A DNA stretch of 64,000 nucleotides from the NCBI GenBank assembly GCA_903885375.1, contig CAISIK010000192.1:88255-152254 (forward strand), written 5' to 3'. Positions within the stretch are counted from its first letter, which is position 1; each line of letters starts with the position of its first letter. Positions 347 to 15,283 of this stretch are shown here, in pieces. A program made the translations under genes and the position numbers. Origin of the DNA: an uncultured Pseudomonadota bacterium (GTDB lineage: Bacteria > Myxococcota_A > UBA796 > SXON01). The notes under the pieces were generated by a model, which worked only from the letters and a program-made list of their open reading frames with translations, did no database searches and had not been told where the DNA came from.

Positions 347-2410
347 ATGGGCCTCCTCCGCCGAGCTCGCACACCCGCGCTCCTCGCGCTCGGCCTCGCC
401 GCGTGCGACACCGCCTCGCCCGACACGTCGCCCGAGCCACGCGACACCGATCTCGCCGACACCGCCGACTCCGCCGCGCCCGAACGCTGGTCGGTGCAGG
501 TTCGCGTGACCCTCGATGGCGCGCCCGTGGCCGGTGCGCGGGTGATGCAGGGCGGCGGGGTGGAAACGTGGGCCACCGACGCCGAAGGCCTCGCCACCGT
601 GGAGATCGACGCCCGCATCCCTGGCGACCTCGCCGTGGTGGCTTCGCACCCCGAAGCGCGCATCTGGTGGGCACCCGCAGACGAAGGGCCCTACCAGGAG
701 ATTGCGCTCACGCGCTTCGACCCCGCCGACAACCCCGACGCCCCCTTCGCCGACCCCGGCGGCGCCGACGTTTCGCAGAGCACGAGCGAGCAGTGCAGCC
801 ACTGCCACGTCACGATCCATGCCTCCTGGTACGCCTCGCCGCACCGGAGCGCGGCCTCGAACACCGTCGTCCAGGACGTGTACGGCGGGGCCGCCAGCGC
901 GTTCACCACCGCCGACGCCTGCGCGATGGCGGGCGGGCGCTGGGAGCCCACGCGCTCGCCCGGCACCGGCGAATGGGGAGAGGGCTGCCGCTTCGGGGAG
1001 GATGTCCTCGGCGGCACGGGCGGCAGCGGCGGCTGCGCCGACTGCCATGCTCCCGGCATCGACGGCGCGCTCGGCGGGCACGATCTGCTCGATGCCACCG
1101 GCGTTGCCTACGAGGCCGGCGTGCATTGCGACGTCTGCCACCACGTGGAGTCCGTGGACATGAGCGCGCCGCCCGGTGTGGGCGGGCGGCTGCACATCGT
1201 GCGGTCGTCCGAGCGCGCCACTTCGCCGGGCATGGGCGACTGGCAGCCGATCACCTTCGGTCCCTACGCCGACGTCCCCAACCTGCGAATGGGGGCCGTG
1301 CAGCGCGACTTGTTCCACTCCGCCGAGCTTTGCGGGGGCTGCCACGAGTCCGCCCAGCCAGTCCTCGTACCGGGTGCGGAGGCCGACCTCTCCCGCTGGC
1401 CCGACGGTCTCCTGCCCATCCACACCACGTTCTCGGAGTGGGAGGTCGGGCCGATGAACCCGGCGGCCCCGTGCCAGAGCTGCCACATGCCGCCGCGCGC
1501 CGACGTGGGCAACTCGGCGGACCTCGGCAACGTCTTCACCGATATCGAGCCCGGGGTTGCGGCCGGGTGGGAGCGGGCGGCGGGCGAGGTGCGGGAGCAT
1601 GCCTGGTGGGGGCCGCGGCAGCGGGCGTCGCGCATGCTGGAGCTCGCGGCGTCGTTGACGCTCGACACGTCGGTGGCCGACGGCATCCTCACCGCCCGGG
1701 CCACCGTGAAGAACGTCGGCCCGGGGCACGCCATCCCCACCGGCGAGCCCTTGCGTTCGGTGGTGCTGCGGGTGGAGGCGCTGTGCGAGGGGGTCGCGCT
1801 GGAGGCCACCGGCGGCTCGGCGATCCCCGACTTCGGCGGCTGGCTCGATCGCCACGAGGCCGGCGAGGACTGGTCGATCTGGCCGGGAGCGCGGGTGGGC
1901 GAGGTGGTGCGCGTGGTGCGCAGCACGGGGCGGTGGCTCGACTATGCGGGCCATGGCCCCTTCGGGGATGGGACCTTCGATGCCGAGGCGAAGGGCATGC
2001 CGGAGGAGGAGGTCGCCGGCTTCGCCACCATCGTGTCGGTGGCGGGCGACCGCGTGACCTTCGACCGCGCGCTCCCGACCGGGGATGTCGCCTACCGGGG
2101 CTCGGCGGCGGAGCTCCCGGCCGACGGGGATGAGGCGCGCGCGGTGGCCGGCGCGCCCGGTTTTGCGTTCGCGCGCGTGCTCGTCGGCGCCGACGGCGCG
2201 CGCATGGTGCCGCACTTCCAGGCGGTCGACGTGGCGAGCGACAACCGCCTGCTCCCTCAAGCCGCGTGGACCAGCACGCACACCTTCGCCGCCCCCTGTG
2301 CCGATCCGGAGGTGCGGGCCGTGCTGGTGCACCGGGCGTGGCCGCTCGCGTTGGCGAACGAGCGCGGCTGGCCGCTCACCGAGTCGGTGATGGCGGAGGC
2401 CACACGATGA
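347..2410 (+). CDS. Multiheme c-type cytochrome-like lipoprotein
   Basis: 687 aa, lipoprotein-like N-terminus (LALGLAACD); five CXXCH motifs (CSHCH, CADCH, CDVCH, CGGCH, CQSCH). Confidence 0.85.
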   Translation: MGLLRRARTPALLALGLAACDTASPDTSPEPRDTDLADTADSAAPERWSVQVRVTLDGAPVAGARVMQGGGVETWATDAEGLATVEIDARIPGDLAVVASHPEARIWWAPADEGPYQEIALTRFDPADNPDAPFADPGGADVSQSTSEQCSHCHVTIHASWYASPHRSAASNTVVQDVYGGAASAFTTADACAMAGGRWEPTRSPGTGEWGEGCRFGEDVLGGTGGSGGCADCHAPGIDGALGGHDLLDATGVAYEAGVHCDVCHHVESVDMSAPPGVGGRLHIVRSSERATSPGMGDWQPITFGPYADVPNLRMGAVQRDLFHSAELCGGCHESAQPVLVPGAEADLSRWPDGLLPIHTTFSEWEVGPMNPAAPCQSCHMPPRADVGNSADLGNVFTDIEPGVAAGWERAAGEVREHAWWGPRQRASRMLELAASLTLDTSVADGILTARATVKNVGPGHAIPTGEPLRSVVLRVEALCEGVALEATGGSAIPDFGGWLDRHEAGEDWSIWPGARVGEVVRVVRSTGRWLDYAGHGPFGDGTFDAEAKGMPEEEVAGFATIVSVAGDRVTFDRALPTGDVAYRGSAAELPADGDEARAVAGAPGFAFARVLVGADGARMVPHFQAVDVASDNRLLPQAAWTSTHTFAAPCADPEVRAVLVHRAWPLALANERGWPLTESVMAEATR

Positions 2411-3753
2411 TCCTGCTCGCCCTCGCCTGCGTGGAGCCCGTCGACACGGCCGGGCCGGGAGAAGCCGACACCGCGCCGCCGGCGGACACGGGCGACTCCG
2501 CTGCCCCGCTCCTCCCCCAGCCTGCACCCGCAGAGGACCTCGACCCCGACGAGTCTGTCGTGCATGTGGCGCTCGAAGCCTCACCCCTCAGCTTCGAGGT
2601 GAACGGCCGCACCGTGGAGGGGTTCGCCTACAACGGACAGGTGCCCGGCCCGCTCATCCGCGCGCAGGTGGGCGACACCGTGGTCGTCGACTTCACCAAC
2701 CACCTCGACGCCCCCACCACCGTGCACTGGCACGGCCTCGCCGTTCCGGCCGCGATGGATGGGGTCACCTGGCTCCAGGACCCCATCCAGCCGGGGCTCG
2801 GCTTCCGCTTCGAGTTCACCGTCACCGAGGCCGGCACCTTCTGGTACCACCCCCACCTCGACTCCGACCACCAGGTCGACCTCGGCCTGTACGGCGTGCT
2901 CCTCGTGGAAGACCCGGCCGAGCCCGCGGTGGAGCAGGACCTCGTGGTGGTTTGGGATGCCTGGGGGGAGGACCCGGAGGCCGACACGCACACGGCCCCC
3001 GACCCGTCCAGCGTGGTGTGGACGGCCAACGGCGTCGTGGAGCCCCGCCTCGAGCTGGCGGCCGGAGAGCGGGTGCGCCTCCGCATGCTCAACGTGGCCA
3101 ACCTCTCCTACCTCGACCTTGCCTGGCCCGGGCTCCGCCAGATCGCCGGCGACCAGGGCCGCCTCGCTGCGCTCGCTGCGCCCGAGAGCGTGCTGCTCGC
3201 GCCCGGCGACCGCGCGGAGTTCGAGCTCCTGCCCACCGCCAGCCTCACCGTGGAGACCGCGCTCCACACGGCGTCGGGGGGCGCCGTACCCGGGGCGGCC
3301 CTCCCGCTCCTCCAGGTGGTGCTCCCCGCCGAGCAGCCGGCGCCCGAGGCGGCCGACTGGCCCTTCGCGGGCGGCGCCGTGGCCCCGGATCCCGGCACCA
3401 CCGATGCGATCTACGTCTTCAGCGGCGGCGGCGGCGATGCCTGGCTCATCAACGGCGAGGTGTACCCCGACGTGACCGTGCAGACGCTCGCGCTCGGCCG
3501 CAGCTCGGTCGTGGAGGTTCGCAACCTCTCCTCCACCGAGCACCCCTTCCACCTGCACGGCCACGCCTTCGAGGTGCTCTCCCAGAACGGCGAGGCGCCG
3601 GCGGCGCGGGAGGTCGAGGACACCGTGAACGTGGGCATCCGCGAGTCGGTCCGCCTGCTCGTGCACGCCGACAACCCCGGCGACTGGATGGCGCACTGCC
3701 ACCTCCTGCCGCACGCCGAGGGGGGGATGATGGCGGTGCTGCGGGTGGAGTAG
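2407..3753 (+). CDS. Multicopper oxidase
   Basis: ATG at 2407 overlaps upstream stop (ATGA); HWHG, WYHPH, HPFHLHGHAF and HCHLLPHAEGGMM copper motifs. Confidence 0.92.
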   Translation: MILLALACVEPVDTAGPGEADTAPPADTGDSAAPLLPQPAPAEDLDPDESVVHVALEASPLSFEVNGRTVEGFAYNGQVPGPLIRAQVGDTVVVDFTNHLDAPTTVHWHGLAVPAAMDGVTWLQDPIQPGLGFRFEFTVTEAGTFWYHPHLDSDHQVDLGLYGVLLVEDPAEPAVEQDLVVVWDAWGEDPEADTHTAPDPSSVVWTANGVVEPRLELAAGERVRLRMLNVANLSYLDLAWPGLRQIAGDQGRLAALAAPESVLLAPGDRAEFELLPTASLTVETALHTASGGAVPGAALPLLQVVLPAEQPAPEAADWPFAGGAVAPDPGTTDAIYVFSGGGGDAWLINGEVYPDVTVQTLALGRSSVVEVRNLSSTEHPFHLHGHAFEVLSQNGEAPAAREVEDTVNVGIRESVRLLVHADNPGDWMAHCHLLPHAEGGMMAVLRVE

Positions 3754-3767
3754 GGGTAGACTGCGGA

Positions 3768-6422
3768 ATGCTCGCCCTCGCGCTCCTCGCCTGCCAGTCG
3801 TCCCCTGCTCTCCGGCTCGTCTCGCCCGAGAAGGGCGCCCGGTTCGCCGTGGGCGAGTCGGCGCCCATCACGGTGGGCGTGACGCCAGCGGATGCCATCG
3901 GCGAGCTGGAGCTCCGCTTCGAGCTCGATGGTGTGGAGCTTTCCGGAACCCCCTCGCGCGATGAGGCCCGCGGCGAGGCCACCCTCTCGCTCGAAGGGCT
4001 CGCCGCGGGCGAGCACGAGATCGTGGTGGTGGGCGAGCTCGAGGGGGGCTCCGACCGGGTGGAGGGCAGCTTCTCGGTGTTCCAGAACCAGCCCCCCGTC
4101 GTGACCTTCCTCACCCCGCCGGAGGGCGGCTTCGTGCTGGAGAACGCCACCTTCGAGCTGGTGGTCCAGGTGGAGGACGCCGACGCGGTGCCCGGCCGGA
4201 CCGGCATCACGCTCTCCTGGGCGGGCGTGGCGGCGGGCGTGGTGGCGGCGCCCGGATCGATGTCGGCGTCGGGCGAGGTGCGCTTCGTGGCAGGCCCGCT
4301 TGTGCCCGGAGACTACACGGTGGGGCTCGTGGCCACCGACGCCCATGGCGCCGCCGGGGAGGGGTCCGCCGCCTTCTCCACCACCACGGGGGACGCCGAC
4401 CACGACGGCTTTGCCGACGCCGCGCTCGGCGGTGATGACTGCGACGATCACGATGCCGCCGTGAATCCGGAGGCCGAGGAGCGCTGCAACGGCGTGGACG
4501 ACGACTGCTCCGGCGCAGTGGACGACAACGCGGTGGACGCCGCTGCCTGGTACACCGACAGCGATGGCGACGGGTACGGCACCGATGCCAGCGCGGTCGT
4601 GGGCTGCGACGACGGCACCCGCGTGGCGAACGGCGGCGACTGCGATGACGCGGACCCCGCCCGCAGCCCCGGCGCGGTGGAGGAGTGCGAGACCGGCATC
4701 GACGAGGACTGCGATGGCATCGTCGACACCGACGCCGCCGCGAGCTTCCCGCTCTACACCGACGCCGACGGCGACGGGTACGGCGGGGCCGCCGCGGGGT
4801 CGGACTGCAGCGTGCCGGACGGCAAAAGCGCCGTGCCGGGCGACTGCAACGACACCACCGCGGCCATCTCCCCCGGCGCGCGCGAGGCCTGCGACGGCGC
4901 CAACGTGGATGAGGACTGCGATGGCCTCGCCGACGACAAGGACGCCGGCCCCACCGGCACCAGCACCTTCTACGCCGACACCGATGGCGATGGGTACGGC
5001 GATGCCGGCTCCACCACCTCCCGCTGCGATGCCGGTGGCGGGTGGGTGGCGAACACCGGCGACTGCGACGACGACGCGTCGCTCGCCTGGACCGGCGCCA
5101 CCGAGAGCTGCGAGGATGGCGTGGACAACGACTGCTGGGGGGGCGATGGGCTCTGCGCGCTCGCCGGGAGCCTCTCGCTCTCCACCGCCGACGTGAAGCT
5201 CACCGGTTCGGCGGCCGCCACGGCCGGCTCGGCCGTGGCCTCCGCCGGCGACCGCGATGGGGACGGCGTGACCGACCTCCTCGTGGCCGCGCCGCTCCTC
5301 GGCACGGGCGGCACGGTGTACCTCGTGGATGGCGCCTCCCTGGCCAGCGGTGCGCTCTCGGGCAGCGCGAGCGTGACGGCGGAGGCTGCCAGCGATGGGC
5401 TCGGCACGGCGCTCGCCGGCTGCGGGGATGCTACCGGCGATGGCCGCTCCGACGTGGTGCTCGGCGCCTACGCGGCCTCGAGCGGCGCCGGTGCCATCTA
5501 CCTCTGGTCGGGGAGCAAGGGCTCCGGCGGGGCCTCCACCGCCACCGACGAGGTGAACGGCGCCTCGGGCGACCAGCTTGGCTACGCGCTCGATTGCGGC
5601 GCCGACGTGAACGACGATGGCAAGATCGACGTGCTCGCCGGCTCCCCCGGTGGCGGCCTCGCCACGCTCTACGACGCCGCCACCCTCACCCGCTTCTCCA
5701 AGCTCGCGGGCGGCTCGGGCTCCGCCACCAGCGTGGCCTTCGTGGACGATCACGACGGCGATGGCATCGACGATGTGCTCGTGGGCGACGAAGCCGGCGA
5801 GAAAGCGTACCTCGTGGTGGGCCGCTCCGGGTTCGGCAACCTCACGCTCTCCTCCGGCGCCGACGCGATCTTCAGCGCCGAGGCCGCGGGCGATGAGTCG
5901 GCGGCTGCGGTGGCCGGCGCCGGCGACCTCAACGGCGATGGGTACGCCGACCTCGCGGTGGGCGCGCCGGAGAACGACAACGCCGGCGCCTCCGCGGGCA
6001 GCGCCTACGTGATCTTCGGCCAGGCCGCCCCGGCCTCGATGGGCCTCGGCTCGGCCGATGCGGTGCTCCGCGGCGGCGACGCCGCCGACTACGCGGGCAG
6101 CGCCCTCGCCGGGGCCGGCGATGCCGACGGCGATGGTTACGCCGACCTGCTGGTGGGCGCCTTCTACGATGAAACGGCCGGCGCCGGTGCCGGCGCGAGC
6201 TACCTCCTCTACGGGTCGGCCGGCTTCGCCGACCTCTCGCTCACCGCGGCCGACGCCATCCTCCTCGGCGAGGGCGCGCGCGACAGCTCGGGCGACAGCC
6301 TCGCCTTCGTGCCCGACCTCGATGGGGATGGCACCGACGAGCTCCTCATCGGCGCGCCCAGCGAAAGCAGCGGCGGCGGCGGCGCAGGTGCCGCCTACCT
6401 GTTGTTCGGCGGCGCGTACTGA
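3768..6422 (+). CDS. Lipoprotein with DxDCDG-type putative metal-binding repeats and C-terminal FG-GAP repeats
   Basis: MLALALLACQSS start; DDDCSG, DEDCDG, DEDCDG, DNDCWG modules, then multiple DGYADLLVGA FG-GAP repeats. Confidence 0.88.
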   Translation: MLALALLACQSSPALRLVSPEKGARFAVGESAPITVGVTPADAIGELELRFELDGVELSGTPSRDEARGEATLSLEGLAAGEHEIVVVGELEGGSDRVEGSFSVFQNQPPVVTFLTPPEGGFVLENATFELVVQVEDADAVPGRTGITLSWAGVAAGVVAAPGSMSASGEVRFVAGPLVPGDYTVGLVATDAHGAAGEGSAAFSTTTGDADHDGFADAALGGDDCDDHDAAVNPEAEERCNGVDDDCSGAVDDNAVDAAAWYTDSDGDGYGTDASAVVGCDDGTRVANGGDCDDADPARSPGAVEECETGIDEDCDGIVDTDAAASFPLYTDADGDGYGGAAAGSDCSVPDGKSAVPGDCNDTTAAISPGAREACDGANVDEDCDGLADDKDAGPTGTSTFYADTDGDGYGDAGSTTSRCDAGGGWVANTGDCDDDASLAWTGATESCEDGVDNDCWGGDGLCALAGSLSLSTADVKLTGSAAATAGSAVASAGDRDGDGVTDLLVAAPLLGTGGTVYLVDGASLASGALSGSASVTAEAASDGLGTALAGCGDATGDGRSDVVLGAYAASSGAGAIYLWSGSKGSGGASTATDEVNGASGDQLGYALDCGADVNDDGKIDVLAGSPGGGLATLYDAATLTRFSKLAGGSGSATSVAFVDDHDGDGIDDVLVGDEAGEKAYLVVGRSGFGNLTLSSGADAIFSAEAAGDESAAAVAGAGDLNGDGYADLAVGAPENDNAGASAGSAYVIFGQAAPASMGLGSADAVLRGGDAADYAGSALAGAGDADGDGYADLLVGAFYDETAGAGAGASYLLYGSAGFADLSLTAADAILLGEGARDSSGDSLAFVPDLDGDGTDELLIGAPSESSGGGGAGAAYLLFGGAY

Positions 6423-6456: not shown

Positions 6457-7065
6457 CTACTTCACCTGGTAGGCGGCCTTGTAGAAGTAGTAGCTGTCCG
6501 TGCCGCAGTGCACCGGGCCGCCGTGCCACTCGCCATCCTTGAAGGAGCTGTTCTCATCGAGCGTGCAGGTCTTGCCGATGATGTTGGCCTTGTCGGAGAA
6601 GTAGGCATCCTCGGAGTGGATGTCGACGATGAGGACCGTGGTGCCAGCGGGCACTTCGGCGGTGGCGCGGGCGCCGGTCACCACCGGAGCGGCGGGGGCG
6701 GCCGCGGCGCTCACCACCTCGTAGGCGGCCTTGTAGAAGTAGTAGGAGTCGGTGCCGCAGGTGACCGAGCCGCCGTGCCACTCGCCGTCCTTGAAGGAGC
6801 TGTCTTCCTGCAGGGTGCAGGTCTTGCCGATGATGTTGGCCTTGTCGGAGAAGTAGGCATCCTCGGAGTGGATGTCGACGACCTTGACCACGCTGCCCTT
6901 GGTGACCAGCTGCGTGGCCCGCACGCCGGTCGAAACCACGGGGGTGCCGAGCTCGGAGGGCACGTCGATGCCCTGCTTCTCAAGCATCTCCTGCATGTCG
7001 GAGCCGCAGCAGCAGCAGGCGGAGGCGGCGAGAACGATGAAGGAGGCGGGGAGGAAGAGCTTCAC
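6457..7065 (-). CDS. Secreted lipoprotein with two copies of the DAYY/GWHGG/YYFYK repeat
   Basis: Signal/lipobox-like start (LAASACCCCGS); two near-identical repeats SEDAYFSDKANIIGKTCT...GEWHGG..C...YYFYKAAY. Confidence 0.85.
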   Translation of the reverse strand: MKLFLPASFIVLAASACCCCGSDMQEMLEKQGIDVPSELGTPVVSTGVRATQLVTKGSVVKVVDIHSEDAYFSDKANIIGKTCTLQEDSSFKDGEWHGGSVTCGTDSYYFYKAAYEVVSAAAAPAAPVVTGARATAEVPAGTTVLIVDIHSEDAYFSDKANIIGKTCTLDENSSFKDGEWHGGPVHCGTDSYYFYKAAYQVK

Positions 7066-7108
7066 GACGGGTCCGGGAGTGGCCGCGTGCTAACGCACGT
7101 GTCGAAAT

Positions 7109-9946
7109 TCAGCGACGAGAAACCGAAACGTAGGCGAAGTACCAGTACTGTCCGCCGCAGGTGAGGCCGCCCCCGTAGAACAAGCCGTCGTTGCGGTGCA
7201 GGTCGCCCTTCACGGTGCAGGCCTGGCCGATGTAGTCGCCGCGGTTGTCGTAGTAGAGGTCTCCCGTGCGGAGGTCGCGGATGGTCACCCGCGTGCCGTC
7301 GGCCACCTTCTCGCCGAGGTCCTGGCCTGCGGTGCCCGCGCTCGCGCCGCCGCCCACGCTGGTGAGCGCCGCCTTGTAGAAGTAGTAGCTGCTGCCATCC
7401 GTGCAGGCGAAGGGCCCGCCGTGCCAGCCGCCCGTGTAGTAGGTGGAGGCTTCGCCGGGGGCGCACGTCTTGCCGATGATGCCGCTCCGGTCGGCGTAGT
7501 AGGCATCCTCGCTGGAGATGTCCTTGATGACCACGGGGGTGCCGGCGGGAACGGAGGCGGTGAGGTCACGCGCGCCCGCCGTGGCGGGCGCCGACGCCGC
7601 ACCGGTGCTGATCCCCACCTTGTAGAAGTAGTAGTCGCTGCCGTCCTCGCAGGCGATGGGGCCGCCGTACCAGCCGCCGCCGTGGTCGGTGAGCGCATCG
7701 GTGGCGGTGCAGGACTTGCCGACGATCCCGGCCTTGTCGGCGTAGTAGGCATCCTCCGAGGAGAGGTCGACCAGCTTCACCTTGGCGCCCTTCGCCACCG
7801 GTCCGCTCGCACGGCCGGCCGAGCTGACCGGTGCGGCCGGGGCAGGCGCCTTCGTGGCCGCCGGTGCCGCCGACCCGCGCGCGACCTGCACCTTGTAGAA
7901 GTACATGCTCCCGCCGGGGCAGTCCATCCCGCCGCCGTACCAGAGGCCGTCGTTGCGGTGGAGGTCGCCCGAAACGGTGCAGTTGAGGCCGATGTAGCTC
8001 CCCTTCGAGCCCACGTAGGCATCGTCGGCGTGGATGTCCACGATGGTCACGCCGGTGCCGTTGGCCACCTTGTCGCCGAGGTCCTGCGCGGAGCCCGACG
8101 CCGTGCCGGTGGCGACGCTGCTGTCGGCCGCCACCAGCGCGGCCTTGTAGAAGTAGTACGCCCCGCCGTCGTCGCAGACCATGGGCCCACCGTGGAAGCC
8201 GCCGCCGTTGTGGCTCATCCCCTGGCCGGTGGTGCAGATGAGGCCGATCATCTCCTTGCCCGGGTAGTACGCATCCTCCGGGGAGATTTCGGTGATGCGA
8301 ACCTCGACGTCCGCGGGCAGGTCGTAGGTCAGCGCACCGCCGGTGCTCGTCGTGGCGCGCGGAGCGGCCTTGGGGGGTGTGGCGGCCGCCCCGGCCATCG
8401 GGATGAGCGCCGCCTTGTAGAAGTAGTAGTCGCCGCCGCCGCAGCTGGCGGGGCCGCCGTGCCAGCCTTCCCCGTTGTGGTTGGTGTCGGTGGTGACGGT
8501 GCAGGTGAGACCCACCATCTCGTCGGAGGAGCTGTAGTAGGCATCCTCGGGCGAGAGCGCATCGAGGCGCACGGTCGTGCCCGCGGGGATCGGGGCGAAG
8601 ATCCGGGCGCCGGCCGTGGGCGCGCTCTTCGGGGCGGCGGCGGCCAGCGTGGCGCGGTCGGCCTCCTCCAGCCAGGCACGCGCCTCGGTGACCTGCGGCA
8701 CCGGCACCACGATCACGGTGTCGTCCACCGAAACGGTGGCCTCGCCGTAGGTGGACAGGTAGGTCTCGACCACCCGCCGGGTGGCGCTGCCGCCGCCCTT
8801 GAGCACGCCCTTCACGGCCGTCCAGTCCTTCGTCGCCTGATCGAGCAAGGCAGTACGTGCCGCATCGGTCCGCTTGCTGCGCTCGGACTCCAGCGTCTTC
8901 TTCATCGAATCCGCCCGCTCTGCCGCGGCCTTGGCCTCCGCGTCGGCCCGCGCGGCCTCGGCCGCCATGGCGGCGAAGTCGGTGCCGCGCGTGCTCACGC
9001 TCGCCACGGGGGCGCGCACCGGGGGGGGCTCGGGCACCACCTCGCGGGAGCGCAGGTCGGGGGCCGGCTCCTTGGCGCCCTTCACCAGCTTCCAAGCGGA
9101 GGCGGAGTCGGTGGTGAGCTGCGGGGTCTGGGCGGTGATGCCCATGGCGCCTAAGGATTCGGTGATGAACTCGTGCGACTCCTCGGCGGTGATCACGCCG
9201 TCCTTCTTGCCGTCGAGCTGACCGTCGGCCCAGCCTCGACCGGCGCCCACCCAGAAGTAGGTGAAGGCGCCGTGACCGGTGCCGGGGAGGGGGCGGGCGA
9301 GCTGGTCGGGACCCGCCGCGTTCCACTCCGCGATGCCCTTGACTTGCTGGATCGCCGCGGAGGGCACCACGAAGCGGGTGCCGCCTTCGAGCACGCTGCC
9401 GCCCTGGCGGGTGCCGCCGTTGTAACAGGCGTCGATCACCATCATCAGCTGGCCCGCCCCCGTCTTGCCGACCTTGCGGATCTCGGACACGGTCACGGAG
9501 CGGGCGCGCAGGGCCTCCGGCGCGGTGGGAACGTCATCGCCGAGGAGGAGACGCTCGCCGTCGGGGGAGGCGCCGCCGTGGCCGGCGAAATAGAACCAGA
9601 GGGTGCCACCGGCGCCCACCTGGTGCGCCATGTCCTGCAGCGCGCCGAGGATCACCTCGCGCGAGGCGCCCGCCGTGAGCAGGCGCACGCGGCCCGGGGA
9701 GACGCCGCGGGTGTACACGAGGAAGTCGCGCACGAGCTTGGCATCGGCCACCGCGCCGGGCACGTCGGCCACCCGGAGGTAGTCCTCCACCCCGATGACG
9801 ACGGCGGCATCCTCGGGGCTCGCCTGACCCGTCTTCAGCGGGGCGCCATCGAGGACCGGCAGCGCATCGAACGCGAGGGTCGGCGCCGAGAGGAGGGCGG
9901 CCAGCGTGAGCAGAGTGGGGAGCATTGCCCAATTTGTCGCGATCAC
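7109..9946 (-). CDS. Caspase-family (peptidase C14-like) secreted protein with coiled coil and six C-terminal DAYY/GWHGG/YYFYK repeats
   Basis: Signal peptide; His motif WFYFAGHGG and Cys motif MVIDACYNGG; Ala/Glu-rich coiled coil; six repeats with C-x19-C. Start could be 9925. Confidence 0.88.
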   Translation of the reverse strand: MIATNWAMLPTLLTLAALLSAPTLAFDALPVLDGAPLKTGQASPEDAAVVIGVEDYLRVADVPGAVADAKLVRDFLVYTRGVSPGRVRLLTAGASREVILGALQDMAHQVGAGGTLWFYFAGHGGASPDGERLLLGDDVPTAPEALRARSVTVSEIRKVGKTGAGQLMMVIDACYNGGTRQGGSVLEGGTRFVVPSAAIQQVKGIAEWNAAGPDQLARPLPGTGHGAFTYFWVGAGRGWADGQLDGKKDGVITAEESHEFITESLGAMGITAQTPQLTTDSASAWKLVKGAKEPAPDLRSREVVPEPPPVRAPVASVSTRGTDFAAMAAEAARADAEAKAAAERADSMKKTLESERSKRTDAARTALLDQATKDWTAVKGVLKGGGSATRRVVETYLSTYGEATVSVDDTVIVVPVPQVTEARAWLEEADRATLAAAAPKSAPTAGARIFAPIPAGTTVRLDALSPEDAYYSSSDEMVGLTCTVTTDTNHNGEGWHGGPASCGGGDYYFYKAALIPMAGAAATPPKAAPRATTSTGGALTYDLPADVEVRITEISPEDAYYPGKEMIGLICTTGQGMSHNGGGFHGGPMVCDDGGAYYFYKAALVAADSSVATGTASGSAQDLGDKVANGTGVTIVDIHADDAYVGSKGSYIGLNCTVSGDLHRNDGLWYGGGMDCPGGSMYFYKVQVARGSAAPAATKAPAPAAPVSSAGRASGPVAKGAKVKLVDLSSEDAYYADKAGIVGKSCTATDALTDHGGGWYGGPIACEDGSDYYFYKVGISTGAASAPATAGARDLTASVPAGTPVVIKDISSEDAYYADRSGIIGKTCAPGEASTYYTGGWHGGPFACTDGSSYYFYKAALTSVGGGASAGTAGQDLGEKVADGTRVTIRDLRTGDLYYDNRGDYIGQACTVKGDLHRNDGLFYGGGLTCGGQYWYFAYVSVSRR

Positions 9947-9968
9947 CCGGAGGCGGCAACCGAAGGGG

Positions 9969-10928
9969 CTATTTCAGATCGACTTGTACCTTGTAGAAGT
10001 AGTAGTACTTCTTCTTGCAGGTGAGGCCGCCGCCGAACCACTTGCCGTCCTGCTGGGGGTGGAGGTCGCCCGTGACTCGGCACTCCTTGCCGATGAAGTC
10101 GGCGCGGTCGGCGTAGAAGGCATCCTCCTCGGAGACACCGCGGATCACCACGGCGGTGCCGTCGGCGAGCGTGCCGGGCAGCTCGGGGAGCGCCGAGGGG
10201 TCTTCAGTGAGCAGATCGCTTGTGGAGGGCGCGCCCGGCGTGGGCCGCAGGAGGTCCTGGCTCGCGTGCGTGGGGTCGCTCGCGAGGGCCACCATGAAGA
10301 AGTAGTAGTTCTCGCCATCCCAGCAGCGCATCGGCCCGCCGTGCCAGCCTTCGGCGTTCTGCGTGAGGTCGTCGGTGGGGTAGCAGGCCTTGCCGATCAC
10401 CGCACCACGGTCGGGGTAGTAGGCATCCTCGGAGGAGAGGCCCACGATCCGCACGGCCTCGCCCGCGCGAATGCTTCGACGCAGGGCCTCCGGGGGCGCC
10501 GGCTCGCCCGACCGCCCGGGCCACGCCCGCGGCTCCGCTGCTGCTGCGGCGGCGGCCGCTCCACCCGCTCCAGCCGTTCCCCCCGCGGGCGCTCCACTGG
10601 TACCGAAGCGGATGCCCTTGCCGATCTGCTGGGCAATCGTGGCGGCAGAGACCGAGCGGGGCTGCGCCGCCGTGCCCGGCACGGTGACCGCCACGGCGTT
10701 GGGGCTGTACGACGCGCCGTTCGCGCATTGCAGGGAACCCTTCCACCAGCCGTCCCCGCTCGAGGTGAGCGCCGTGGTGCCCACTGCGCAGACCTCGCCG
10801 AGCAGGGTTGCCCGGTCCCGCGCGAGGGGGTCGGCCGGGCCGACGTCGGTGACGACCACGACGGTTCCGGTGCCGAGCGTGAGGCTGCCCGCCTGCACGA
10901 GGCCCACGAGGAGGAGGGGAAGCAGCAT
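9969..10928 (-). CDS. Secreted protein with three DAYY/GWHGG/YYFYK repeats
   Basis: MLLPLLLVGLVQAGS signal-like start at 10928 overlapping the upstream stop (TGATG); three repeats, first divergent. Confidence 0.82.
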   Translation of the reverse strand: MLLPLLLVGLVQAGSLTLGTGTVVVVTDVGPADPLARDRATLLGEVCAVGTTALTSSGDGWWKGSLQCANGASYSPNAVAVTVPGTAAQPRSVSAATIAQQIGKGIRFGTSGAPAGGTAGAGGAAAAAAAAEPRAWPGRSGEPAPPEALRRSIRAGEAVRIVGLSSEDAYYPDRGAVIGKACYPTDDLTQNAEGWHGGPMRCWDGENYYFFMVALASDPTHASQDLLRPTPGAPSTSDLLTEDPSALPELPGTLADGTAVVIRGVSEEDAFYADRADFIGKECRVTGDLHPQQDGKWFGGGLTCKKKYYYFYKVQVDLK

Positions 10929-12742
10929 CAGCGGTCTCCTGGGGCCAGTCGGGTGCGCCACACCTCGCCGAAGGGCAAGGTGATCACCAGCTCGTCTATC
11001 GTGCAGCCGCCGTCGAGGCCGACGGTCAGCGCGGTGTCGTGTTGCATGCCCCAGAGCCCGTAGCCGCCCGACACCTCGAAGGTCTGGATCATTCCGCTCG
11101 CCGCCACGTCTACCCGGGTGCCGGCGGGGAGCCCGTCGAGGCGGAGCGAGGAGCCGCCGAGGCCGTTCTCGTACAGATGGAGGGCGTGCTCCGACCAGGG
11201 AGAGCCGTCGCGTGCGTTGGAGCTGGCCGTCACCACGTCGAGGTCGCCGTCACGATCGAAGTCGGCCACTGCGAGGCCGTGCGGCCAGGGCTGGTCGAGG
11301 CCGCTGGCCTCGCTCACGTCGAGCCAGGTCCCGTCGCCCTCGTTGTGCCAGAGCCGGAGGTGGGTTCCCGGGTAGTCCGAGTCCATCACCAGGAGGTCCT
11401 TCCACCCGTCGAGGTCGAAGTCGATGAGCGCCGCCTGCATGTCGCCTTCGTTCCAGTCGGAGTCGGGAGGGCGGGGGCGCGCGAGCCCGATGGCCGCGTT
11501 GTCCTGGCGGGCGAAGGTGCCCCGTCCGTCGTTGAGCAGGAGCTGGGAGGAGTCGGCGCCCTCGCCGGTCCAGTCGTGGTGGATCTCGCCGTGGAAGAGG
11601 TCGAGGTCCCCGTCGTTGTCGGCGTCGGCGCACACGGTGGTGAAGGTGTTGCCGGCGAGCCGACCCCGTTGGTCGCTGAACCCCGGGGTCCAGTAGGTGG
11701 TGGCCATGTGGCCATCGCAGGTGACGGTCGGCGCCGGATCGCAGCGCTGGGTGGTGCACCAGCACGCGTACTGCATGTCGGCGCGGTAGTCGTCGTTGTC
11801 GTCGGCGTCGATGCCGGCGGCCTGGCCGGACTCGACCCAGATGCCGGTGGCGCGGGTGAAGAGCAGGTTCCAGGTGCGCGCGTAGCTGGACTGGATGAGC
11901 TCGGGAACGCCGTCGGCGTCGACATCGCAGGCGGTGGCGCCGTAGCCGGGCCGGCGGTGGCCGCGGTCGAGCCAGTCGGCGTGGGTGCGGGTGGGCAGGA
12001 GGTCCATGCCCGTGCCGCGGGTCACGTCGAAGAAGGTGCCGTCCCCCCGGCCCTGGAACACGTGCGGGCCGCTGGCATCGAGCTCGCCGTACTCCCGATA
12101 CCAGCCCACCACCCAAAGGTCGGGGATGCCGTCACCGTTCCACTCCGTGAACGCGGCCGCCGCCGTGCTGGTGGCGATGGGCTCCTCCACGCCGCTCGCC
12201 CGAACGCGGGTGTAGTGCCCTTGGCCGTCGTTGAGGAAGATGGCGCTCCGGTCGCCTGTGGGGTCGGGGTGGCCCTCGTCGTGGTAGCGACCGGCGAACA
12301 GATCGAGGTCGCCGTCGAGGTCCACGTCGGCGCCCACGTAGAGGCTGTGGCTGCTGCCGACCTTGCCGTCGCGGCCCACGAGGAGGCCGCTCTCCACGGT
12401 CTCGTCCACAAAGGTGCGCCGACCGTCCACCTCCCGGTTCATCAGCACGGCGTGGTGCAGGATGCCGGCAGCCGGGTCGTCGCGCGTGTCGTGCGGACTG
12501 CCGCTGGCGAGCAGGTCCGTCCACCCATCCCCATCGAGGTCGAGCGCGACGGCGTTCGTCGCCGTGAGGTCGGAGAGCCCCCAGCCGCGCGTGGCCTCCG
12601 TGTAGGCGGGGCGGGCGGCGTGCCAGAGGGCGCCCGGCCCGCCGCAGTTGAGCGCGGCGCGCACGCCTCCAGGGCCAGCTCCCGACGCGGGCGTTCGGCC
12701 TTCCCCGGCGATCAGCTGGTGAACGAGGAGGGCGAGCAGCAT
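10928..12742 (-). CDS. VCBS/FG-GAP repeat protein with C-terminal ASPIC/UnbV-like domain
   Basis: DLDGDGWTDLLASG, DVDLDGDLDLFAG, DFDRDGDLDVV repeats; C-term SSLRLDGLPAGTRVDVAASGMIQTFEVSGGYG. Start at the internal MLLALLVHQ; the rest of the 1581-aa ORF is antisense extension. Confidence 0.82.
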   Translation of the reverse strand: MLLALLVHQLIAGEGRTPASGAGPGGVRAALNCGGPGALWHAARPAYTEATRGWGLSDLTATNAVALDLDGDGWTDLLASGSPHDTRDDPAAGILHHAVLMNREVDGRRTFVDETVESGLLVGRDGKVGSSHSLYVGADVDLDGDLDLFAGRYHDEGHPDPTGDRSAIFLNDGQGHYTRVRASGVEEPIATSTAAAAFTEWNGDGIPDLWVVGWYREYGELDASGPHVFQGRGDGTFFDVTRGTGMDLLPTRTHADWLDRGHRRPGYGATACDVDADGVPELIQSSYARTWNLLFTRATGIWVESGQAAGIDADDNDDYRADMQYACWCTTQRCDPAPTVTCDGHMATTYWTPGFSDQRGRLAGNTFTTVCADADNDGDLDLFHGEIHHDWTGEGADSSQLLLNDGRGTFARQDNAAIGLARPRPPDSDWNEGDMQAALIDFDLDGWKDLLVMDSDYPGTHLRLWHNEGDGTWLDVSEASGLDQPWPHGLAVADFDRDGDLDVVTASSNARDGSPWSEHALHLYENGLGGSSLRLDGLPAGTRVDVAASGMIQTFEVSGGYGLWGMQHDTALTVGLDGGCTIDELVITLPFGEVWRTRLAPGDR

Positions 12743-13942: not shown

Positions 13943-15283
13943 GTGATAGCGCCCGCGCCCATGTCGAAGCTCGGAAGACTCGCGAAGCTCGGCTCCCTCA
14001 CCACGAGGGTCACGGGCAGCTACCTCGGCCAGCAGCTGGCCGGGCTCATGCAGAACGAGGAGCAGCGCAAGGAGGCCGTGGGGAAGCTCCACGTCGAGAA
14101 CGCCGGTCGCATCGTGCAGAACCTCGGCGCGCTCAAGGGCGCGGCCATGAAGGTGGGGCAGGCGGTGGCGCAGGTGGTGGACACGCTCGACATGCCGGCC
14201 GAGGCCAAGGCGGTGCTCGGCAAGCTCCACGACAAGGCGGAGCCGGTGGCGTGGGAGGTCGTGAAGGCCCGGATCGAGGCGGAGCTCGGCGGCCCGGTGG
14301 CGAGCCTGTTCGCGGAGATCGACCCCAGCCCGCTCGGCACCGCCTCTCTCGGCCAGGTGCACGCCGCGCGGCTGCCCGATGGCAGCGACGTGGTGGTGAA
14401 GGTGCTGCATGCCGGCGTGGAGGAGGCCGTTCACAGCGATCTCTCCGCGCTGAAGAACATGCTCGTCGGCGGGCGCTTCCTTCGCCGGAGCAAGGCGGAG
14501 ATCGATGCGTGGTTCGAGGAGATCGACGCGCGCCTCGCCGAGGAGATCGACTACACCAACGAAGCCGGCAACCTGCAGGCCTTCCGCCGGGTGCTCCTCA
14601 ACGACCCCGACGTGATCGTGCCGCGGGTGTACGAGGGCTGGAGCACGAGCAAGGTGCTCACGATGGAGCGCCTGCACGGCAAGCCGCTCGCCTCGTTCGT
14701 GGCCACGGGCACTCCCGAGGCCAGGCAGCGCGCGGGCACGGCGCTCGGCCGCACCTTCTTCGACCTGTTCTACGGCCATCGGATGATCCACGCCGATCCG
14801 CATCCGGGCAACTTCCTCTTCCAGCCCGACGGTCGCCTCGGCCTCCTCGACTTCGGCTGCGTGCGCACCTTCGATCTGGAGTGGGTGGCCGACTACGGCG
14901 CCTGCGCCATCTACACCCGGCGCAACCAGCGCGAGCTGATGATGCGCCACGCCGTCGCGCTGGGCGCCCTCTCCGAGCGCAACGCCGCCTCGGAAGAAAC
15001 GTTGTGGACGCTCGGCCGCGCCATCGGCATCCCCTTCCGCGGCGGTGCGTTCACCACCGGCGGCCCCGAGGATGACGCGCACGAGCACATCGCCCGCATC
15101 ATGCCGAAGGTGATGATCGACTCCCGGCTGCGCGCCCCGAAGGAGCTGGTGTTCCTGCACCGGGCGCTCGGCGGCATCTACTCGATCAACAAGCAGCTCC
15201 AGCCCCGCACCGACTGGGGGCTCGTGATCGAGGCGGCCTACGCGCGCACCCTCAAGGACGCCGGGCGAACGCTCGAAGGCTAG
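13943..15283 (+). CDS. ABC1/AarF (UbiB/ADCK) atypical kinase family protein
   Basis: GAAMKVGQ, LGTASLGQVHAARL, RMIHADPHPGNFLF...LLDFGC motifs; start may be 13961. Confidence 0.9.
   Translation: MIAPAPMSKLGRLAKLGSLTTRVTGSYLGQQLAGLMQNEEQRKEAVGKLHVENAGRIVQNLGALKGAAMKVGQAVAQVVDTLDMPAEAKAVLGKLHDKAEPVAWEVVKARIEAELGGPVASLFAEIDPSPLGTASLGQVHAARLPDGSDVVVKVLHAGVEEAVHSDLSALKNMLVGGRFLRRSKAEIDAWFEEIDARLAEEIDYTNEAGNLQAFRRVLLNDPDVIVPRVYEGWSTSKVLTMERLHGKPLASFVATGTPEARQRAGTALGRTFFDLFYGHRMIHADPHPGNFLFQPDGRLGLLDFGCVRTFDLEWVADYGACAIYTRRNQRELMMRHAVALGALSERNAASEETLWTLGRAIGIPFRGGAFTTGGPEDDAHEHIARIMPKVMIDSRLRAPKELVFLHRALGGIYSINKQLQPRTDWGLVIEAAYARTLKDAGRTLEG

Follow-up and report, generated by a model that had tools for sequence, protein, structure and literature searches.

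Results

Organization of the Locus

The window, i.e., the whole stretch of 64,000 nucleotides analyzed here, carries on its minus strand an operon in the order FG-GAP propeller, three-repeat P0003, six-repeat caspase P0002 and two-repeat lipobox-like P0001. The first gene (10928..12742) encodes an exported FG-GAP beta-propeller protein of 604 aa (PF13517 with 101 bits, PF01839 with 44 bits), and its stop codon overlaps the start of P0003 (TGATG). P0003 (9969..10928) is an exported protein of 319 aa if read from the ATG at 10928, which fits the relatives; an alternative GTG at 10961 gives 330 aa. After a gap of about 20 bases follows P0002 (7109..9946), a protein of 945 aa composed of a signal sequence, a caspase domain, a coiled helix and six repeats, as delimited by Pfam and a repeat profile. 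About 40 bases further lies P0001 (6457..7065), an exported protein of 202 aa with a lipobox-like start (LAASACCCCG), two repeats and an N-terminus which recurs in relatives. The GC contents by codon position in the repeat-gene ORFs (0.58/0.47/0.94 and 0.66/0.55/0.93) are those of typical coding sequence; the three ORFs are real and belong to the minus strand. Neither an Rfam RNA nor a sigma-70-like promoter was found in the region.

The profile built from the copies and a paralog recovered exactly the 11 repeats (2 + 6 + 3) that the first-pass annotation had counted in the three adjoining minus-strand genes. The unit comprises about 70 aa with two Cys residues per copy. Each copy in the window scores 75-113 bits and the profile search of the whole genome returned P0001, P0002 and P0003 with E values of 7e-22 to 4e-33, so that chance is ruled out. 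All copies were delimited by the profile on the minus strand. P0001 contains repeat 1 at 6715..6924 (aa 48-117) and repeat 2 at 6463..6672 (aa 132-201). The repeats of P0002 are located at 8399..8608 (repeat 1, aa 447-516), 8129..8338 (repeat 2, aa 537-606), 7877..8086 (repeat 3, aa 621-690), 7604..7816 (repeat 4, aa 711-781), 7358..7570 (repeat 5, aa 793-863, the copy used for structure prediction) and 7115..7324 (repeat 6, aa 875-944). Those of P0003, numbered in the 330-aa frame, are found at 10680..10895 (repeat 1, aa 23-94), 10278..10490 (repeat 2, aa 158-228) and 9975..10184 (repeat 3, aa 260-329). A fourth repeat gene with four copies is encoded about 44 kb away on the same contig.

The Cys spacing noted before was reproduced, with C-x19-C in nine of the 11 copies and C-x20-C in two, namely copies 1 and 3 of P0003. 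The consensus described for the copies holds overall, with the exception of the divergent copy 1 of P0003, in which YFYK is absent and DP replaces DAYY. The two subtypes said to recur across genes turned out to be loose: GEGWHGGP is found literally in one copy only, while DLHRNDGL is literal in repeats 3 and 6 of P0002 and merely similar in copy 3 of P0003.

Export and Gene Neighborhood

The label "secreted" agrees with the relevant N-termini, which have hydrophobic signal sequences, some of them with clear lipoboxes, and export is predicted. Measured against the lipobox pattern [LVI][ASTVI][GAS]C, the starts of P0001 (LAASAC) and of its paralogs (AAGFC) are imperfect, with FC or SAC and a run of Cys. 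About a dozen related proteins share the P0001-type N-terminus MKLLLPV...AAGxCCC(C)GG. A conserved run of three to four Cys residues after the signal sequence (AAGxCCC(C)GGD) was observed in the window at 7006-7017 (P0001 aa 17-20) and in L009, L032, L044, L046-L053, and L076; in several of these proteins it deviates from a standard lipobox. Because of the signal sequences, the Cys pairs and the lipobox-like starts we place the proteins in the cell envelope.

Orthologs of the FG-GAP protein with 54-61% identity are encoded directly upstream of P0003-type genes in L032, L033, L044, L050, L052, L054, L055, and L056, and the locus L063 from another genus has an ortholog with 51% identity upstream of a repeat gene. 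The adjacency of FG-GAP and repeat genes was thus seen in nine genomes besides the window. L032 (BJHF01000020.1, listed as Myxococcota) and L033 (CAIXRH010000095.1) were both found with the caspase query. Within the genus, a caspase gene between P0003 and P0001 is present only in the window species, L032 and L033 (3 of 11 genomes), the contig of L033 stopping after its caspase gene. In L044 and L050 the P0003- and P0001-type genes adjoin with no caspase gene between them, which indicates that the repeats do not need the protease.

Further ORFs surround the operon. A convergent gene at about 3980-6422 (+) encodes a lipobox-like protein in which MopE-type DDCDG motifs and FG-GAP repeats occur; a comparable gene in L032 (10988-13735, -) matches Cu-binding_MopE and FG-GAP. 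The region 2266-3753 (+) encodes a multicopper-oxidase-like protein with the motifs HWHG, HPFHLHGHAF, and HCHLLPH in its translation. At 13943-15283 (+) lies a gene for an AarF/UbiB-like kinase, and the same neighbor occurs in L032, L050, L055, and L056.

Search for a Named Family and Predicted Fold

The first-pass annotation knew of no named domain with the signature of the repeat, and the database searches bear this out: in Pfam, NCBIfam, PHROGs, PADLOC, and the PDB sequences the repeats of the window proteins stayed below every cutoff. The repeat is a real domain family, unnamed in the libraries searched. Among the weak Pfam matches of window proteins and relatives are small-barrel families, i.e., DUF4926, SH3_3 (two proteins), Tudor_2, Agenet, KN17_SH3, and NfeD. 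SH3_3 (PF08239) reached 14.1 and 17.2 bits in relatives (gathering score 27) and gave no match in the window proteins. Tox-SGS, an isolated match below its cutoff (0.0036; 17.9 vs. 25 bits), was set aside.

For a single repeat (repeat 5 of P0002), AlphaFold2, supplied with an alignment of 28 copies from the window, L032 and L033, returned a model with a pLDDT of 96.2 and a pTM of 0.84. The small beta barrel proposed earlier is confidently predicted: the model is a small all-beta barrel of five strands (15-20, 37-40, 45-47, 51-58, and 63-73) with one short helix (27-32), and its size falls within the 55-75 residues of a five-stranded small barrel. An SH3-like barrel had also been envisaged, and the solved structures nearest to the model are mostly of this kind, though no match is significant. 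In the Foldseek comparison with the PDB SH3-like barrels dominate (best E 0.7, TM 0.44-0.55, none with E < 0.001), the matches comprising PetP, the C-terminal domains of FeoA and IdeR/MntR, KOW-type ribosomal proteins, tandem tudor, PWWP, and SH3 domains; the viral library gave nothing significant. As no fold match is significant, the designation "SH3-like" rests on the confident model together with concordant weak matches, and the repeat probably forms a barrel of the SH3-like kind that is far from any with a solved structure.

Distribution and History of the Copies

The repeat family was detected in 21 of 379 Myxococcota genomes, all of which belong to two families (f1 and f3) of the window's order. 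Within the phylum it is therefore lineage-restricted and confined to part of one order. Matches of the class 2 profile (see below) in the distant family f13 (E 7e-4; two weak) are thioredoxin-like proteins with WCGPC and were discarded as chance. Phages and viral contigs were searched without finding the repeat, and the plasmid matches of P0002, among those listed, are confined to the caspase part; carriage by phages or plasmids was accordingly rejected.

The arrays consist of one to eight tandem copies with linkers of Ala, Gly, and Pro. Copy numbers differ between orthologs, with six repeats in P0002 vs. five and five in its orthologs and two in P0001 vs. one. In the tree of copies most copies of P0002 and P0003 cluster by position with their counterparts in L032 and L033 (three-row clades, several with a support of at least 95). 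These copies were hence distinct before the window species, L032 and L033 split, and are old and kept. The two P0001 copies cluster together (90), which points to a recent duplication.

Two Cysteine Layouts

The alignment comprises 156 copies from the 21 Myxococcota genomes, 154 of them full-length and two fragments. In class 1 (120 full-length copies) Cys residues occupy columns 34 and 54, with none at column 46 or just upstream of the domain. In class 2 (34 copies) columns 34 and 54 are free of Cys, and one Cys is found at column 46 and another 9-14 residues before Gly8; the latter is present in 34 of 34 copies and nearly always lies within a CPxGA-like motif. None of the 154 full-length copies has a mixed layout, the two exceptions being the fragments. 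Both classes conserve an Asp (99%) as well as a set of aromatic residues (Y/F22, W47, Y60-F62-Y63), and the homology of the classes is evident from a profile comparison (hhalign probability 99.8, E 1.4e-27).

The pairing of the two Cys residues, suggested at first by the window copies, is supported by this all-or-none co-occurrence and by covariation, in which columns 34 and 54 rank first among all column pairs (corrected mutual information, z 10.4, Neff 111). The Cys inventory of the window proteins is in line with it. The 13 Cys residues of P0002 are Cys174 and the pairs of its six repeats; P0003 has six, and P0001 has four in addition to the CCCC run at aa 17-20, so that only Cys174 and this run lie outside repeats. 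Since the layouts are all-or-none, the alignment most likely reflects a single structural disulfide in each module, which was relocated as a unit. In class 1 this putative bond would run from the Cys where strand 2 starts to the one where strand 4 ends; in class 2 its partners would be the upstream Cys, which shortly precedes the domain, and the Cys where strand 4 starts. That the pair moved as a unit argues against a catalytic, metal-binding or redox-active role of the Cys residues. Of all features of the repeat family, this apparent relocation of the disulfide was the least expected.

Class 2 is confined to four genomes of f3 (loci L059-L061, L067-L072, L075, L077, and L078), and in five cases (L059, L061, L069, L071, and L075) both classes occur within one protein. 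With the Cys columns left out of the tree calculation, eight changes of layout are needed on the free topology, and supported branches force only two. These eight changes would fit a repeated origin of class 2, yet one clade holding all of class 2 is not rejected (p-AU 0.48). As supported independent class switches are so few, a formal sign test is without power. At L067:5448-7602 (G032:C1) class 2 repeats are distributed among several short frames separated by a stop codon; the array may be decaying or frameshifted.

The Caspase Protein and Its Paralogs

The Peptidase_C14 domain of P0002 (aa 47-185; 9392..9808, minus strand) matches PF00656 with 34.3 bits, above the gathering cutoff of 21.4, and contains a His-Cys dyad on the same strand: His123 (9578-9580) in the motif YFAGHG and Cys174 (9425-9427) in IDACYNGG. 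The label "caspase-like" was therefore appropriate. Both residues are invariant in the P0002 orthologs of three species. A PADLOC caspase model matches P0002 with 3.2e-16, while for caspase_w_EACC1 (NF047832) the protein remains at 56 bits against the NCBI cutoff of 140. The structure model of the caspase part (pLDDT 46, alignment of three sequences) was not used. P0002 has an Asp two positions before Cys174, as do the Arg/Lys-type metacaspases, and we infer protease activity with a preference for Arg or Lys in P1.

In repeat-free caspase paralogs of the genus the catalytic Cys is replaced by Asp, Gly, or Ser in eight loci (L010:2700-4580 and L083-L089). The His is kept in these paralogs, which are present in most genomes of the genus. 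They look inactive and are likely pseudo-caspases, judged from their sequences. Two other repeat-free paralogs keep DAC or DTC.

Discussion

The repeat described here defines a domain that annotation pipelines have missed in a group of uncultured lake myxobacteria. We consider it rather probable that the operon specifies an exported, surface-tethered assembly, in which stapled SH3-like modules anchor or bind and deliver a metacaspase-type protease to the envelope; the ligand and the activity are part of this proposal. Each copy would fold independently into an SH3-like beta barrel of about 70 aa, closed by one structural disulfide in the oxidizing envelope, and the copies would be connected within the exported proteins by flexible linkers of Ala, Gly, and Pro. 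The modules may then act as binding or anchoring units, as do SH3b arrays in exported cell-wall enzymes, and hold the caspase and its partner proteins at the cell surface or link them with one another. The tethered Arg/Lys-type metacaspase would act outside the cytoplasm, P0002 presumably being the protease of the surface assembly in some species only. We infer the function of the repeat assembly by analogy. The joint reading, i.e., an unnamed exported family in which the disulfide moved as a unit (C34-C54 vs. N-terminal Cys-C46) and which mounts a caspase at the surface, in a complex that includes an FG-GAP propeller and lipobox-like partner proteins, has in our judgment about an even chance of being right in all its parts.

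Unlikely, though worth considering, is that the arrays are mere spacers or stalks, the stapled repeats forming rigid beads that keep the caspase and the lipoproteins off the membrane and bind nothing. Tandem arrays of one to eight copies on Ala/Gly/Pro linkers, varying in number between orthologs, would suit such a role. However, individual copies are conserved position by position over species, and the Asp and the aromatic set kept across classes suggest more, although the aromatic residues could equally belong to the core.

A redox switch, in which reversible reduction of the Cys pair would regulate the protease or the binding of partners during oxidative stress, appears improbable. The idea is invited by the two Cys residues of each repeat in a protein whose caspase has a catalytic Cys, and by the thioredoxin-like gene adjoining the repeat gene of one relative (L069), but the repeat has no CxxC, the pair occurs mostly in proteins without a protease, and its relocation in class 2 with the domain kept is what is expected of a structural staple.

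Very improbable, in turn, is an antimicrobial or LPS-binding module akin to crustacean anti-LPS factors. In these factors, as in the repeat, some 20 residues form a loop between two Cys; moreover, one relative scores just above the cutoff of Anti-LPS-SCYG (PF11630) with 26.7 vs. 25 bits, and there the match (L057:5814-7862, -; residues 166-205 of the open frame) lies inside a repeat, in the Cys-Cys loop. It covers only 40 of the 100 profile positions, P0001 in the window reaches 13.5 bits, L057 is the only one of the proteins scanned above the cutoff, and the predicted fold is a closed barrel. Similarly improbable is a metal or ligand site formed by the Cys, Asp, and His residues of SEDAYY and WHGGP, for in spite of the nearly invariant Asp and the His often found beside Trp in the window copies, column 48 is His in only 31% of all copies and 34 copies keep the Asp without Cys at these places.

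With the surface-tethered assembly that we prefer, P0002 would be a concrete example of a bacterial caspase that is exported and equipped with candidate targeting modules and with partners from its operon, which bears on the role of prokaryotic caspases outside the cytoplasm. Both layouts within one polypeptide offer an all-or-none natural experiment on the relocation of a disulfide in protein evolution.

In predicted fold and length the repeat resembles the SH3-like small barrels, e.g., PetP of cytochrome b6f (7r0w_V, 2n5u), FeoA-type, and KOW/tudor/PWWP domains, and class 2 even keeps a GKxGxV-like turn of the sort found in KOW-type barrels. The repeat differs from them in that it lacks a sequence match, is tandem, exported and Cys-stapled, and has a short helix in the first long loop. 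In overall design P0002 recalls exported enzymes which SH3b arrays anchor to the wall (PMC8470621, PMC6461655), such as the C. perfringens autolysin CpAcp with ten SH3b domains (PMC8470621) and the SH3b-carrying lysostaphin (PMC6461655): all combine a signal peptide, an enzyme, and a string of small SH3-like modules, and the function is proposed by this analogy. In contrast to them, P0002 carries a caspase instead of a peptidoglycan hydrolase, the repeats have a Cys pair, SH3_3 was matched below its cutoff and only in relatives, and the operon adds partner proteins with repeats only.

Prokaryotic metacaspases and orthocaspases with wall-binding or FGE-sulfatase domains (PMC3501461, PMC4933709) share the Peptidase_C14 domain, the His-Cys dyad, and an N-terminal signal with P0002. 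Metacaspases have Arg/Lys specificity (PMC3501461); a putative peptidoglycan-binding domain was reported for 11 of 671 survey sequences, and an extracellular location was proposed for some (PMC3501461). The accessory repeat of P0002 is new compared with these proteins, and SH3 is not mentioned in the text of that survey. Pseudo-orthocaspases carry Tyr/Ser in place of His/Cys (PMC6426788), and the same-genus paralogs of P0002 that lost the catalytic Cys (DAD/DAG/DAS) resemble them, with the difference that in these paralogs only the Cys is replaced, whereas the repeat-bearing caspase P0002 is intact.
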